Positions 8,355 through 14,035 of a DNA stretch of 35,397 nt are shown here, one piece after another. The notes below the pieces were generated by a model that saw only the letters and a program-made list of their open reading frames with translations, was not told the origin of the DNA and made no database searches. Where the stretch lies: the NCBI GenBank assembly GCA_021208685.1, contig JAJOJJ010000015.1:1-35397 (forward strand), read 5' to 3'. The translations under genes and the position numbers were made by a program. Within the stretch, counting starts at the first letter, position 1; every line of letters starts with the position of its first letter. Origin of the DNA: Saccharospirillaceae bacterium (GTDB lineage: Bacteria > Pseudomonadota > Gammaproteobacteria > Pseudomonadales > Oceanobacteraceae).

Positions 8355-8807
8355 ATGGCAAAGCTCTGGCAACAAACCGGCTACAGCCAGTTAAGGCGCG
8401 GGCGTTATTCCGAAAGCGGTCGTATTTATCTGGTTACTGCCGTGGCAGAAAAGCGCAGGCCTGTTTTTATGGACTGGCAGAGCGCCAGTATTGCATGCAG
8501 GACATTTACCAATGCAAAACTGCTTGGCGACGCCAGACTGCTTTGCTGGGTTTTGATGCCTGATCACGTACATTGGCTGCTGCAGCTGGAGGAGCAGACG
8601 GAGCTTGCTGTTTTGGTGGGGAAGCTGAAAGCGGTGACCAGTCGTAATATCGGTACGGCTGTCTGGCAATCCGGTTTTCACGACCGCGCCATTCGTCGTG
8701 AGGAAGATGTTCTCCCTGCCGCACGCTATATCGTCGCCAATCCTCTGCGTGCAGGGTTAGTAAGGCGGGTCGGAGATTATCCCTATTGGGATGCAATGTG
8801 GATCTGA
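8355..8807 (+). CDS. rayT: REP-associated tyrosine transposase (RAYT, Y1/HUH family)
   Basis: Single-strand-specific HUH nuclease related to IS200/IS605 TnpA that cleaves and joins REP hairpin DNA. The 150-residue protein contains the HUH motif as HVH (His71, His73) in WVLMPDHVHWLL, a YLVTAV strand near residue 25, and the putative nucleophilic tyrosine (Tyr125) in AARYIVANPLRAGLV. The conserved WQSGFHDRAIR segment is characteristic of RAYTs. All motifs are intact, so it may be active. ATG 8355 is preceded by an AGGGAA ribosome site. Confidence 0.93.
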   Translation: MAKLWQQTGYSQLRRGRYSESGRIYLVTAVAEKRRPVFMDWQSASIACRTFTNAKLLGDARLLCWVLMPDHVHWLLQLEEQTELAVLVGKLKAVTSRNIGTAVWQSGFHDRAIRREEDVLPAARYIVANPLRAGLVRRVGDYPYWDAMWI

Positions 8808-10947: not shown

Positions 10948-11719
10948 TCACAGCGCCCACCTGACTCTGGAATTATGCAAAGACGACAGCGGTGCCGAAA
11001 GCATCGCCCTGCTGACGCTGAACCGGCCGGATATTAAAAACGCCATTTCCGATGGTGAAGTGATCGACGCCATCGAACAGACGCTGGCTCAGGTTAATGA
11101 CCGTCAGGACATTAAAGTCGCCGTCTTTACCGGTGTCGGAAACGTGTTCAGTGGCGGTGGCAATATCAAAGCAATGCAGCAGCGCAGCGGTATGTTTGCC
11201 GGTGATGCGCAACAGCTGACCGCCAATTACAAAGCCTTTATTCAGCGCATTCCGCTGGCGTTTGCCCGGCTGGAAATTCCCATTATCGCCGCAGTCAATG
11301 GCCCGGCGGTGGGGGCAGGAAACGATATGGTGTGCATGTGCGATATCGCCATTGCCAGCGAACAGGCCACCTTTGCCGAAAGCTTTATCAAACTGGGGAT
11401 TATTCCCGGCGATGGCGGTGCCTGGTTATTACCGCGCCGTATCTGTATGCAGCACGCGCTGGAAATGGCGCTGACCGGGCGCACATTTTCGGCCGACGAA
11501 GCACTGCGCATGGGGTTGGTCAGTCGTGTGGTGCCGCATGCTCAGTTACTGGGCAGTGCCCTGGGACTGGCACGGCAAATGGCCACCAACGACGCCCGCT
11601 GCCTGCGGGAAACCAAGCGCCTGTTTAACGCCGCCCGCAACCAGACCTTAGAACAGGCGCTGGATGATGCCGCGCAGATTCAGGGGCAGCTGCATCATGC
11701 GCCGGGGTTTAAGTTGTAG
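10940..11719 (+). CDS. Enoyl-CoA hydratase/isomerase (crotonase) family protein
   Basis: 259-residue crotonase. Oxyanion-hole segments are GNVFSGGGNIKAM and GPAVGAGNDMVCMCD; the catalytic acidic pair region is AESFIKLGIIPGDGGAWLLPR, a form common in genuine enoyl-CoA hydratases. The start overlaps aacS by 8 bp with a GGAGGA ribosome site inside aacS. It differs clearly from liuC (no ATIS motif), so it is not a recent duplicate. Likely acts on a short or branched enoyl-CoA; the exact substrate cannot be read from the sequence. Confidence 0.88.
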   Translation: MTDHSAHLTLELCKDDSGAESIALLTLNRPDIKNAISDGEVIDAIEQTLAQVNDRQDIKVAVFTGVGNVFSGGGNIKAMQQRSGMFAGDAQQLTANYKAFIQRIPLAFARLEIPIIAAVNGPAVGAGNDMVCMCDIAIASEQATFAESFIKLGIIPGDGGAWLLPRRICMQHALEMALTGRTFSADEALRMGLVSRVVPHAQLLGSALGLARQMATNDARCLRETKRLFNAARNQTLEQALDDAAQIQGQLHHAPGFKL

Positions 11720-11798
11720 TCGGGTTGGTTTTCAGCAGTAATCATCAGTGCTCGCAGGCACGTACATTCCGGATTTCTACATATGTAAAGATAATAAC

Positions 11799-11826
11799 TT
11801 GATGGCTTGGCCCGGCTGGATATAAT
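11799..11826 (+). promoter_or_regulatory. Sigma-70 type promoter for the lipoprotein gene
   Basis: TTGATG (11799-11804), 16-bp spacer, perfect TATAAT (11821-11826). It lies 52 bp before the lipoprotein ATG, in an AT-rich gap after the previous gene. Confidence 0.75.
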
Positions 11827-11877
11827 CGTTGGGCCTCAGAAGGCGTTAATTACAAATGTATAAGGAATACAGGGATT

Positions 11878-12237
11878 ATGAAATACATCAAACTGGCGGT
11901 GGTTGTTGCTGCTGTATCAATCAGCGGTTGTGCAACAATTCTTTCTGAAGATTCTGCGACAGTGAATGTTGCTACTTCCACAGGCAAGAAAATCGACGTT
12001 ACCATCGATGGTCAGAATTATACTGTCCCAGGTGTTGTTAAATTGCAGAAGGATGGCCAGAGCAAAGTAATCAAAACCAGCGATGCTGATTGCGCGTCTT
12101 CTACTGCGATGAATCGTAAAGTTGAAGGTGTTTTCTGGGTGAACGTCTTATCTGGTGGTCTGTTCGGTTCTACAACTGATTCAGCAACTGATGCAATGTG
12201 GACCTACGACGATAACGTCACTATCAGCTGTCAGTAA
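11878..12237 (+). CDS. Small predicted lipoprotein of unknown function
   Basis: 119 residues with a signal peptide MKYIKLAVVVAAVSISGC: two lysines, a hydrophobic core and a lipobox ISGC, with Cys18 as the lipidation site. The mature part is beta-rich and ends in LSGGLFGSTTD-SATDAMWTYDD followed by a near-terminal cysteine; Cys in DADCASS and the last-but-one Cys could form a disulfide. The GGLFGSTTD/MW segment resembles small envelope lipoproteins of unknown role in other gammaproteobacteria (recalled, not searched). It has its own promoter and an AAGGAAT ribosome site, and stops 7 bp before the DUF4105 gene. Residues after the lipobox CAT do not contain an Asp at +2, so outer-membrane sorting is expected. 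Confidence 0.8.
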   Translation: MKYIKLAVVVAAVSISGCATILSEDSATVNVATSTGKKIDVTIDGQNYTVPGVVKLQKDGQSKVIKTSDADCASSTAMNRKVEGVFWVNVLSGGLFGSTTDSATDAMWTYDDNVTISCQ

Positions 12238-12244
12238 TCTGCAG

Positions 12245-14035
12245 ATGAACAAGTGGTTAAAAGGGAGCCTGCTGGCTTCCTTTTTTTTGTGCATGGATGC
12301 TTATGCCAGCGATCGGGAAACATTGCTGCAGGATACTGCAAACTCTCCGGTATGGCAGGCTTTGTTACATTATAAAAAAGAGCAACTTGCTGTTTCTGAT
12401 CCGGATTTTATTTTATCCGCTGAAAATTTTTCATTACGTAATGAGCTGGATGCAACGCTGAATTTATTGACTGCGGAGTTGATGGGTCATTGCCGCTTTC
12501 CGGCACGTTATATTTTTTTAAAGACGCGTGGACTAATCAATAAGGAACAGAATTTATCGGAGTGCCAGGAATATAAACAGTTTCTCCTCCGCGCACCGGC
12601 TGATGAAATCAGCGTTGTATATGCGTCGGAAAATCTGGTGAATCCGAGCAGTATGATGGGACATGCCATGCTGGCTCTTGAGGGCGTCAGAGAGGATGGG
12701 TTTCGTGCGCGACACTCCGTTTCATTTTTTACTGAGCTCGACAGTATTAACCCACTGAAGGTCATCTGGGAAACGATAATAGAGGGAAAGCCCGGATTCT
12801 TTCTCGTCAAGCCCCTGCAACAGCATTACGAATTTTATAATCTGGCAGAGCAGCGCAATGTCTGGCGCTATGAGCTTGACCTCAGCGTTGAACAAAAGAG
12901 TCTTCTGCAGGCCCATCTGTGGGAATTACGCTCCGTTAATATGGATTATTTTTTCCATAAGCAGAATTGCGCTACGGTATCTGCCGATCTGATTCGTCTG
13001 GTTATTCCGCAATTAACAACTGGCGACTGGGTTACCCCTATTGATCTGGTTAAAGCCGTCAATCGCAGCGGAAGCATTAAAAGCATAGAAATAACACCGG
13101 CCGCTAAATGGCGTGTACGTATGCTTGAGGATACTGTGCCGCAGGAATATCAGGATGCGGTTTATCAGTGGCAAAAGGGGGAAATTGATAAACTGCCGCA
13201 GGTCGGTGGTGAAGAAGGATTTTTGCTGCGGGAAATGGCGACAGCGGTACTGGATTACAAAGAACAGACGGGTGCCGGTGATACCGGGCAGGGTGCGCAA
13301 AAGACAGAAACGCTGCGTCAGAGTATCCCCGACTCACCAGAATTTTCTGACTATGAACTGACGCTCGATCATTATCGTTCGCCACTGAAAACACCAGAGG
13401 ATGCGCATTATTCGTTCGGCTATCAGCGCACAGAAAAAAATGACTGGCTAAACCTGCAATGGTTGGCGGTGGGTCATGGGATTGAAGATGACAATCGTCA
13501 GTATTTTGCTGAGAACGAATTAAAACTGTTTGATTTGTCGTTGCGCGTATCACCACAGCACGAAGCGTTACGCCTTAATCATCTGCAGCTGTATTCGGCC
13601 CGCTCCCTGACGCCGTGGGATCGTTTTACCGGTGGTGTTTCGGGGGATTTCCGCGTCGGCTTTTATTCACTGGCTGACGATAATCTGCAGCGGCACACCG
13701 CATTTAATATTCATGGCGGTGCCGGTATTACTCTGGCGGCCTCGGCTGATTTGCGTCTGTATGCTCTGCTGAATGGCGGCTGGTACAGAAATAAAGACGC
13801 CGATTTTATCTACGCCGAACCTGAAATCGGCGCTTACCTGTATGAAGTCTTTGATATGAAAAGCTGGCTGCGTTATCAGCCCAGATTTGCTCCTGACAGA
13901 AAAACGCACCAGCAGCTGACGCTGACGCACAGCATTGCCCTGGAGAAGTCAGCCTTAATTGCTGAAGTATCCCGCCTTACTGTTGATGGCAAATATGAAC
14001 ATACCGCCAATATTAACTGGCGCTGGTATTTCTGA
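12245..14035 (+). CDS. DUF4105/Lnb-type periplasmic domain protein with predicted C-terminal beta-barrel
   Basis: 596 residues from ATG 12245, giving a signal peptide with likely cleavage after AYA (residue 21). The Lnb/DUF4105 domain spans about residues 60-260: GHCRFPARYIFL near 81, NPSSMMGHAML with His140, and FFHKQNCATVSADLI with Cys242, a papain-like His/Cys arrangement. In Enterococcus, Lnb is a lipoprotein acyl-transferring enzyme; the role of the proteobacterial relatives is not established. The C-terminal half (about 400-596) alternates polar and aromatic residues and ends in WRWYF, as outer-membrane barrels do. A longer frame from 12155 overlaps the lipoprotein gene and lacks a signal peptide, so I reject it. 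No good ribosome site is present, suggesting coupling to the lipoprotein gene. The DNA is visibly more AT-rich than neighbours, a possible sign of transfer. Confidence 0.82.
   Translation: MNKWLKGSLLASFFLCMDAYASDRETLLQDTANSPVWQALLHYKKEQLAVSDPDFILSAENFSLRNELDATLNLLTAELMGHCRFPARYIFLKTRGLINKEQNLSECQEYKQFLLRAPADEISVVYASENLVNPSSMMGHAMLALEGVREDGFRARHSVSFFTELDSINPLKVIWETIIEGKPGFFLVKPLQQHYEFYNLAEQRNVWRYELDLSVEQKSLLQAHLWELRSVNMDYFFHKQNCATVSADLIRLVIPQLTTGDWVTPIDLVKAVNRSGSIKSIEITPAAKWRVRMLEDTVPQEYQDAVYQWQKGEIDKLPQVGGEEGFLLREMATAVLDYKEQTGAGDTGQGAQKTETLRQSIPDSPEFSDYELTLDHYRSPLKTPEDAHYSFGYQRTEKNDWLNLQWLAVGHGIEDDNRQYFAENELKLFDLSLRVSPQHEALRLNHLQLYSARSLTPWDRFTGGVSGDFRVGFYSLADDNLQRHTAFNIHGGAGITLAASADLRLYALLNGGWYRNKDADFIYAEPEIGAYLYEVFDMKSWLRYQPRFAPDRKTHQQLTLTHSIALEKSALIAEVSRLTVDGKYEHTANINWRWYF
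12259..12288 (+). terminator. Factor-independent terminator inside the signal-peptide codons
   Basis: Stem 12259-12269 pairs with 12274-12284 (11 bp including one G-T wobble), loop TGCT, then a T-run reaching 12288. It begins 14 bp inside the DUF4105 gene and would terminate the lipoprotein transcript. Confidence 0.8.

Follow-up and report, generated by a model that had tools for sequence, protein, structure and literature searches.

A predicted intrinsic terminator conserved across bacterial phyla within the signal-peptide code of DUF4105 genes that follow a small lipoprotein gene

A stretch of 35,397 nucleotides from a Saccharospirillaceae bacterium (GenBank assembly GCA_021208685.1, contig JAJOJJ010000015.1, positions 1 to 35,397 of the forward strand; called the window below), which belongs to a 4.0-Mb genome, was analyzed with respect to a hairpin and adjoining T-run at the beginning of a gene for a DUF4105 protein that directly follows the gene of a small lipoprotein. 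Comparison of 83 distinct lipoprotein-DUF4105 pairs establishes the element, its position within the signal-peptide code and its conservation at the DNA level beyond the constraint imposed by the protein. We consider it likely that the element serves the lipoprotein gene as a conserved but leaky intrinsic terminator, that the DUF4105 signal peptide is overprinted on it and that DUF4105 expression is thereby kept low, and that the start of DUF4105 translation depends on coupled re-initiation. Termination itself, its leakiness, the low expression ratio and the dependence on re-initiation are what we infer from the sequence; the enzyme would probably be scarce relative to its lipoprotein partner through this terminator, and a tuning of read-through by translation of the lipoprotein gene is only suggested.

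In the window, where all features described here lie on the forward strand, the lipoprotein gene (11878..12237, 119 amino acids, lipobox SGCA assigned by eye) ends with the stop codon TAA at 12235-12237 and is separated by a gap of 7 nt devoid of a Shine-Dalgarno (SD) sequence (12238..12244) from the ATG at 12245 of the DUF4105/Lnb-like gene (12245..14035, 596 amino acids; domains DUF7843, Lnb_N and DUF7840). The sequence, the terminator scan and the fold agree on a 5' stem arm AAAAGGGAGCC (12259..12269), a loop TGCT (12270..12273) and a 3' stem arm GGCTTCCTTTT (12274..12284), i.e. on 11 base pairs (five of them G-C) and a 4-nt loop with a U-tract of eight T directly after the stem (12281..12288; its first four T are also stem-paired), as is characteristic of intrinsic terminators. 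The whole element (12259-12288) falls within codons 5-15 of the DUF4105 gene and thus inside the signal peptide MNKWLKGSLLASFFLCMDAYA (12245..12307, cleavage site assigned by eye, with the first domain match from residue 32 onwards). An initial annotation of this DNA had described an 11-bp stem beginning 14 nt after the A of the ATG and followed by eight T, and all its coordinates hold; the T-run indeed encodes Phe-Phe-Leu of the signal peptide as codons 13-15. The scan recovered the hairpin independently, but its listing alone is weak evidence because 15 terminator-like sites were listed between 10 and 16 kb, compared to 6.4 expected. The 26-nt hairpin folds at -15.7 kcal/mol, a value equaled by 0 of 200 dinucleotide shuffles; fold energy alone is nevertheless modest evidence, since 17 of 200 shuffles of a wider 55-nt piece folded as well as the native sequence. 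It is the comparative evidence, and not the fold energy, which confirms that the element is real.

Relatives were collected with a profile of the lipoprotein. A first alignment was too variable for scanning and a narrower one was used instead, which gave 80 loci from genome contigs (80 of 91 confirmed relatives); 12 others were added to reach 92 loci. A search of the genome contigs with the DUF4105 protein as query returned no relatives. The lipoprotein was present in 92/92 loci, as expected because most had been found through it, and was directly followed by a DUF4105 match in 89/92. After removal of three repeats, 86 loci were scanned, and the tree described below exposed three further repeats (L049 = L009, L065 = L010 and L079 = L018), leaving 83 distinct pairs. 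Counts out of 83 and 69 exclude these three repeats; the strict and relaxed scans of 86 loci, the nulls and the counts of starts, Phe codons and rare codons still include them. The terminator scanner was custom-written, and its thresholds were fixed only once an earlier version had been tried on these loci: the strict scan required a stem of at least 6 pairs with at least 3 G-C and at most one mismatch, a loop of 3-8 nt and a T-run, at most 110 nt past the lipoprotein stop. Nulls and controls were run with identical code, except that the flank-gene and genome controls additionally required a total score of 27, which the locus scan, the unlinked-locus scan and the nulls did not.

Downstream of the lipoprotein stop, the strict scan detected a hairpin with T-run in 71 of the 83 distinct pairs (74/86 before the last three repeats were removed), and a relaxed scan was positive in 78/86, a figure that stands without a matching null. 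Of the 74 strict matches, 73 were embedded in the DUF4105 frame and one belonged to a locus with a broken DUF4105 gene (L022). With L022 excluded and L092 removed as unconvincing, the terminator lies inside an open DUF4105 frame in 69 distinct loci; in 67 of these an ATG, GTG or TTG is found in the interval from 14 nt ahead of the lipoprotein stop to the stem, and the frame is open through the hairpin. A few loci are atypical. L018 and L096 have a DUF4105 frame but no ATG, GTG or TTG near the lipoprotein stop, and L018 may use a rare start such as ATT; DUF4105 looks broken in L022, L080 and L108, with matches in two frames in the latter two, and runs off the contig in L057. In L022 (genome G451), where stops break up the DUF4105 gene, the same place after the lipoprotein stop is still occupied by a terminator, whose sequence (AAGCCAGGC/GCCTGGCTT) is unrelated. 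At L084:4401-4446 one 5' arm is followed by two tandem 3' arms (GGCTTCCTTTTTTATAGGCTTCCTTTTTT), as if the second half of the terminator had been duplicated within the signal peptide.

The initial annotation had asked whether the hairpin is kept where codon choice could differ, and the answer was strongly positive. When the 73 embedded signal peptides were recoded synonymously with each gene's own codon usage, a terminator was found in only 139 of 2920 sequences; dinucleotide shuffles of the same 86 stretches gave 76 of 3440 with the strict scanner. Phe codons in the T-runs were TTT in 113 cases and TTC in 7, as compared to 1211 and 786 outside the T-runs of these genes, and in 21 genes which otherwise prefer TTC the ratio TTT:TTC was 29:1 in the T-run versus 128:356 elsewhere in the gene. 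Compensatory changes were analyzed in 42 of the 49 distinct stems with 4-nt loops (omitted were L080, L086, L094, L098, L100, L101 and L102, mostly divergent): 99.5% of the cells were paired, and both sides had changed in 8 of 9 pairs. The covariation score was 0.617 versus 0.233 in shuffles, with 0/500 shuffles as high and slid controls reaching at most 0.259, a score which is only descriptive because the stems had been picked for pairing and 4-nt loops and 7 of the 49 were omitted.

The encoded peptide was less constant than the hairpin. The hairpin axis occupies one codon register in 53/69 loci and five others in 16/69 (L084 and L087, with the peptides KGSLRASFF and KGRLFASFF, differ in register merely through the loop chosen). 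Some of the off-register hairpins encode unrelated peptides, such as QRRRSNRLLFV in Hydrocarboniphaga (L095), SCRRTCAGIFL in Nevskia (L101) and NSKIFILLFFL in a member of the Campylobacteraceae (L098), and KRLIILIISLFLL is another unrelated peptide with the pairing preserved. The converse case, which the initial annotation had named as grounds for abandoning its proposal, i.e. the same signal peptide lacking stem or T-run, was not encountered: none of the 12 pairs failing the strict scan keeps KGS..ASFF or KSG..AAFF, as judged by eye.

As a control, 30 DUF4105 loci were taken as unlinked to the lipoprotein, one of which (L117) was already in the linked set, leaving 29; L123 and L131, whose DUF4105 match starts only beyond residue 77, were excluded. 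The position of the match served to estimate where the signal peptide lies; the frames of L126 and L138 open too late to be informative. Scanner matches were obtained in 3/30, of which those in L116 and L119 lie upstream, near or before the frame opening, and that in L130 falls within the signal peptide with a low score (24.4). Because the shuffle and recoding nulls are low, the stems covary, TTT is favored in the T-run, the peptide varies under a kept hairpin and unlinked loci are almost devoid of the element, we conclude from these sequences that selection acts on a DNA or RNA element and mainly holds the hairpin and T-run, not the peptide.

Embedded terminators were also rare in other genes. 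Among the other genes of the same loci a terminator was found in 5/358 (1/52 in tight same-strand pairs), and among genes called in 1.06 Mb of three genomes in 8/863, one of which is the DUF4105 locus of G040, a genome from the genus of the window, itself (3/235 in tight pairs); control genes were called as longest open reading frames and their starts are hence approximate. The 52 control pairs contained a second, unrelated pair of the same layout at L057:2195-3553, in a metagenome-assembled genome (MAG) of the Gallionellaceae, where a lipoprotein-like gene (MTIRNARFLVGVFLLCLGAC) starts 3 nt past the preceding stop and carries a stem and T-run in its signal peptide (AAACGCCCGC TTTCTA GTGGGCGTTT TTC).

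A quick tree was computed from 81 of the 86 linked and 18 of the 30 unlinked loci, with support from the Shimodaira-Hasegawa-like approximate likelihood-ratio test (SH-aLRT) only, midpoint rooting for drawing and several uncertain long branches. The embedded state changes 8 times on this tree, compared to 25.3 times for shuffled labels. L005 and L006 are nested in the linked clade; no lipoprotein was found in their 1.5-kb flank, and they have no embedded hairpin. In L006 the DUF4105 gene follows what we take, by eye, to be mnmG, then an intergenic terminator, and the signal peptide comes after the terminator. In L112 (G464) the order is reversed, with DUF4105 followed by a diverged lipoprotein and no embedded terminator, which may indicate that the two genes are functionally linked. 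The genome of the window also encodes a second, distant DUF4105 paralogue of 30% identity (L002, G000:C20:172391-173293) with no lipoprotein in the flank examined and no hairpin in its signal peptide.

The pair is widely distributed. Within the host's family, 6 of 44 genomes have a DUF4105 match at an E-value of 1e-40 or better, and three loci from other families of the order (L008, L009 and L010; 37-41% protein identity) keep both lipoprotein and hairpin. Overall it occurs in Pseudomonadota, Bdellovibrionota, Campylobacterota and one Nitrospirota MAG. According to the tree labels, carriers include Alteromonadaceae, Colwelliaceae, Vibrionaceae, Aeromonadaceae, Pseudoalteromonadaceae, Hahellaceae, Oceanospirillaceae and Nevskiaceae, further several beta-proteobacterial families, Novosphingobium, Mariprofundaceae, Bdellovibrionota (three loci, the start being ambiguous in two), Campylobacterota (two) and the Nitrospirota MAG; many carriers are MAGs, which were taken as binned.

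The DUF4105 starts are placed as coupled translation would predict. Of 72 starts, 69 fall between -13 and +26 nt, counted from the first base of the lipoprotein stop, and 19 overlap the stop (ATG at +2). An SD energy of -4 kcal/mol or below was calculated for 6% of these 72 starts, compared to 73% of 71 lipoprotein starts and 42% of 358 flank genes, with medians of -0.7 kcal/mol for DUF4105 and -5.3 kcal/mol for the lipoprotein. Rare codons (by an E. coli-type list) were fewer in the lipoprotein gene than in the DUF4105 gene in 53/71 loci (p = 2.9e-7, the loci being non-independent), and this codon use suggests that the lipoprotein is the better expressed of the two. Taken together, the starts near the stop, their lack of an SD sequence and the rare-codon contrast fit an abundant lipoprotein and a rare enzyme made by coupled re-initiation on read-through transcripts.

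We favor the following sequence of events. A leaky Rho-independent terminator would end most lipoprotein transcripts about 50 nt past the stop codon; as the DUF4105 start lies upstream of it, the terminator would double as signal-peptide code, its A-rich arm read as Lys and its T-run as Phe and Leu. Being inside the code, it would have to be passed by every full DUF4105 mRNA, whichever upstream promoter it came from, so that DUF4105 mRNA would arise only by read-through and little enzyme would be made relative to the lipoprotein. The SD-less start would rely mainly on ribosomes finishing the lipoprotein, thereby coupling the two products, and might keep ribosomes from initiating wastefully on terminated transcripts, where an in-frame stop is missing; in this way it may spare the lipoprotein mRNA from non-stop translation.

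Several observations weigh against this reading. Twelve of the 83 pairs fail the strict scan, so the pair can exist without the terminator: the hairpins of L014 and L073 lack a good T-run, in L020, L021 and L043 the DUF4105 frame opens 58-77 nt past the stop and no terminator was found, in L074 the terminator precedes the frame opening, and L089, L099, L103 and L108 have no convincing terminator (L066, L097, L014 and L074 pass the relaxed scan only). L092, counted within the 71, looks spurious. The distance from the stop to the stem, as measured from the first base of the stop, has a median of 24 nt (interquartile range (IQR) 22-28), and ordinary terminators of the three genomes are similarly spaced (medians 26-27, IQR 20-36); no special spacing or switch is thus indicated, and the idea of a dedicated stop-to-terminator distance was dropped. 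Finally, we know of nothing that changes read-through at this element. Separately, L021 and L104 retain only a DUF4105 remnant after the lipoprotein (a 280-residue frame matching residues 364-541, the barrel part) and no terminator.

The strongest rival, which we regard as possible but clearly less probable, is a translation-coupled antitermination switch, in which read-through requires a ribosome close behind the polymerase, arriving from the lipoprotein gene or the DUF4105 start, and DUF4105 output reports on translation as in pyrBI attenuation. The same start positions, stop overlaps and missing SD sequences would fit it. The spacer between stop codon and stem is 21 nt in the window, with a median of 22 and 18-27 nt in 52/69 loci; excerpts of Li et al. 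(2015; PMC4824070), on which all statements about that study rest, report that termination in E. coli becomes more efficient as stop and stem move apart, up to about 27-30 nt. The window's 21 nt fall in this graded range of dependence on the upstream ribosome, so a ribosome finishing the lipoprotein may tune read-through. In the same study, however, two constructs at 17-18 bp had efficiencies of about 0.12 and 0.8, so that spacing alone predicts little, and initiation 30 bp upstream of a terminator cut termination by only about 10%. The distance from start to stem also varies (median 20, IQR 16.5-27), which suggests that an initiating ribosome would not cover the stem base alike in all loci; the stop distances resemble those of ordinary terminators, and no regulatory input is known. 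These results divide the interpretation in the initial annotation: the terminator anatomy within the signal-peptide code stands and the starts fit coupling, whereas release of the polymerase by a ribosome starting at 12245 is unsupported as stated, given the effect of about 10% in E. coli (PMC4824070). Such a ribosome is a possible trigger of read-through, but if translation matters, the likelier agent would be the lead ribosome arriving from the lipoprotein gene, perhaps re-initiating.

Less probable again, and in our estimate unlikely, is that hairpin and U-tract mainly stabilize the 3' end of the lipoprotein mRNA, e.g. as a small RNA from the 3' untranslated region or an Hfq or ProQ site, the effect on DUF4105 being a tolerated side effect. 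The terminated RNA would end in a hairpin and U-tract, and codon use suggests better expression of the lipoprotein, but an ordinary intergenic terminator would suffice for this purpose and the upstream DUF4105 starts in many lineages would be left unexplained. A scan of window positions 11700-12500 against Rfam also gave nothing at gathering score (two matches reached 19.6 of 42 and 16.9 of 100 bits). The chances are slimmer still that the hairpin acts on DUF4105 translation instead of transcription, for example through pausing shortly past a weak start: most of the chosen, SD-less starts are 7-30 nt ahead of it, but the codon-level conservation of the T-run (113:7 in favor of TTT) would be unneeded in a purely translational role.

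About as improbable is a DUF4105 start placed too far upstream, with a terminator that is truly intergenic. This holds or may hold for L074, where the terminator comes before the frame, for L062 and L069, which are ambiguous, and for L018 and L096 with no standard start; in the window, however, later starts leave no signal peptide (LCMDAYA or MDAYA) whereas the upstream start gives a complete one ahead of the first domain match at residue 32, and 67/69 embedded loci have a standard start before the stem, so we judge misannotation unlikely. Conservation of a KGSxxASFF peptide for secretion, with the hairpin as a by-product of its codons, could account for the register shared by 53/69 hairpins, but as a sole cause it is contradicted by the recodings, the TTT bias and the unrelated peptides with pairing kept, and is very improbable. 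Transcriptional slippage at the T-run, yielding frameshifted products, is equally remote: a hairpin followed by T8 is prone to slippage, but DUF4105 is open in the zero frame and T-run length and register vary between loci.

The DUF4105 protein of the window carries the Lnb_N domain well above the Pfam cut-off (109.5 versus 22.2 bits), and excerpts of PMC12994826 identify DUF4105 as Lnb, the lipoprotein N-acyltransferase of Bacteroides. His140 and Cys242 are invariant in 25 relatives and, following the same excerpts, would form the catalytic pair of a permuted NlpC/P60 core. A structure model (mean predicted local distance difference test score, pLDDT, 87.9) has 12-13 C-terminal strands from residue 388 to the end. 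The best Foldseek matches in the Protein Data Bank (PDB) were porins and other outer-membrane barrels (E-values of 2.8e-6 and weaker); whole-chain TM-scores were low, since a match is possible over the barrel only, and a sequence search for solved relatives at E 0.01 found none. For the lipoprotein, no Pfam family was found with the window protein and seven members, the window gene had no Pfam or NCBIfam family, and PHROGs gave only weak matches lacking a named function. It is plausible that the predicted outer-membrane Lnb-like enzyme and the one small lipoprotein form a functional unit. As in Bacteroides Lnb (PMC12994826, excerpts), an Lnb_N domain with invariant His and Cys is present; the protein described here differs by its modeled C-terminal barrel, described for this protein only, and by its small lipoprotein partner gene, and its acyltransferase activity is predicted.

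Upstream of the lipoprotein gene in the window, by about 50 nt, lies a sigma-70-like promoter (TTGATG-16 nt-TATAAT, 11799..11826, 10/12 matches). Such a site is weak evidence alone, with 3 promoter-like sites between 10 and 16 kb compared to 5.9 expected; TATAAT or TATACT was seen upstream of the lipoprotein gene in 7 distinct loci inspected, the window included. Elsewhere in the window, positions 8355-8807 encode a REP-associated tyrosine transposase (NCBIfam).

Leaky terminators between the genes of an operon set expression ratios; there, as proposed here, partial termination lowers expression of the downstream gene, but they lie between genes, whereas the present element is overprinted by coding sequence. 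In the E. coli pyrBI attenuator (cited in excerpts of PMC4824070) an intrinsic terminator likewise lies inside a short code and translation can interfere with it. Its code is that of a leader peptide, in contrast to the signal peptide of a functional downstream protein following a complete upstream gene. Unlike for pyrBI, we know of no pause site or ligand effect for the lipoprotein-DUF4105 element. The excerpts of PMC4824070 further show that terminators within the first 100 bp of a coding region function in E. coli, as would the present one in its downstream cistron: in construct W48, tR2 was placed 30 bp after the AUG of a second open reading frame, and upstream expression was approximately halved when the terminated mRNAs were non-stop. 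W48 is engineered and has a usable ribosome-binding site; the element described here is natural, conserved across phyla and associated with mostly SD-less starts. Leader-peptide terminators and leaky terminators within operons are already known; searches of open-licence papers in PubMed Central brought up no cross-phylum terminator overprinted by the signal-peptide code of a functional downstream gene.

More tentatively, intrinsic terminators may be pre-adapted to encode signal peptides, with Lys from the A-rich arm, small residues from the stem and Phe or Leu from the U-tract, and might constitute a distinct regulatory architecture: production of a secreted protein would depend entirely on polymerases that escape the terminator of the preceding gene, the escape being governed by ribosomes re-initiating from that gene. 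If this is true, the lipoprotein-DUF4105 pair would be its founding cross-phylum example, with the L057 pair as a second, unrelated case of the layout. The element of this pair would be a natural and deeply conserved DNA segment that doubles as transcription terminator and export-signal code, and would offer material for testing terminators inside coding sequence, the effects of upstream ribosomes and re-initiation, and the ways in which cells cope with non-stop mRNAs. Such elements could escape terminator finders that skip coding sequence, and gene callers that move a start to beyond a terminator. For the family itself, the analysis points to the small lipoprotein as a likely partner of a predicted outer-membrane Lnb-like acyltransferase.

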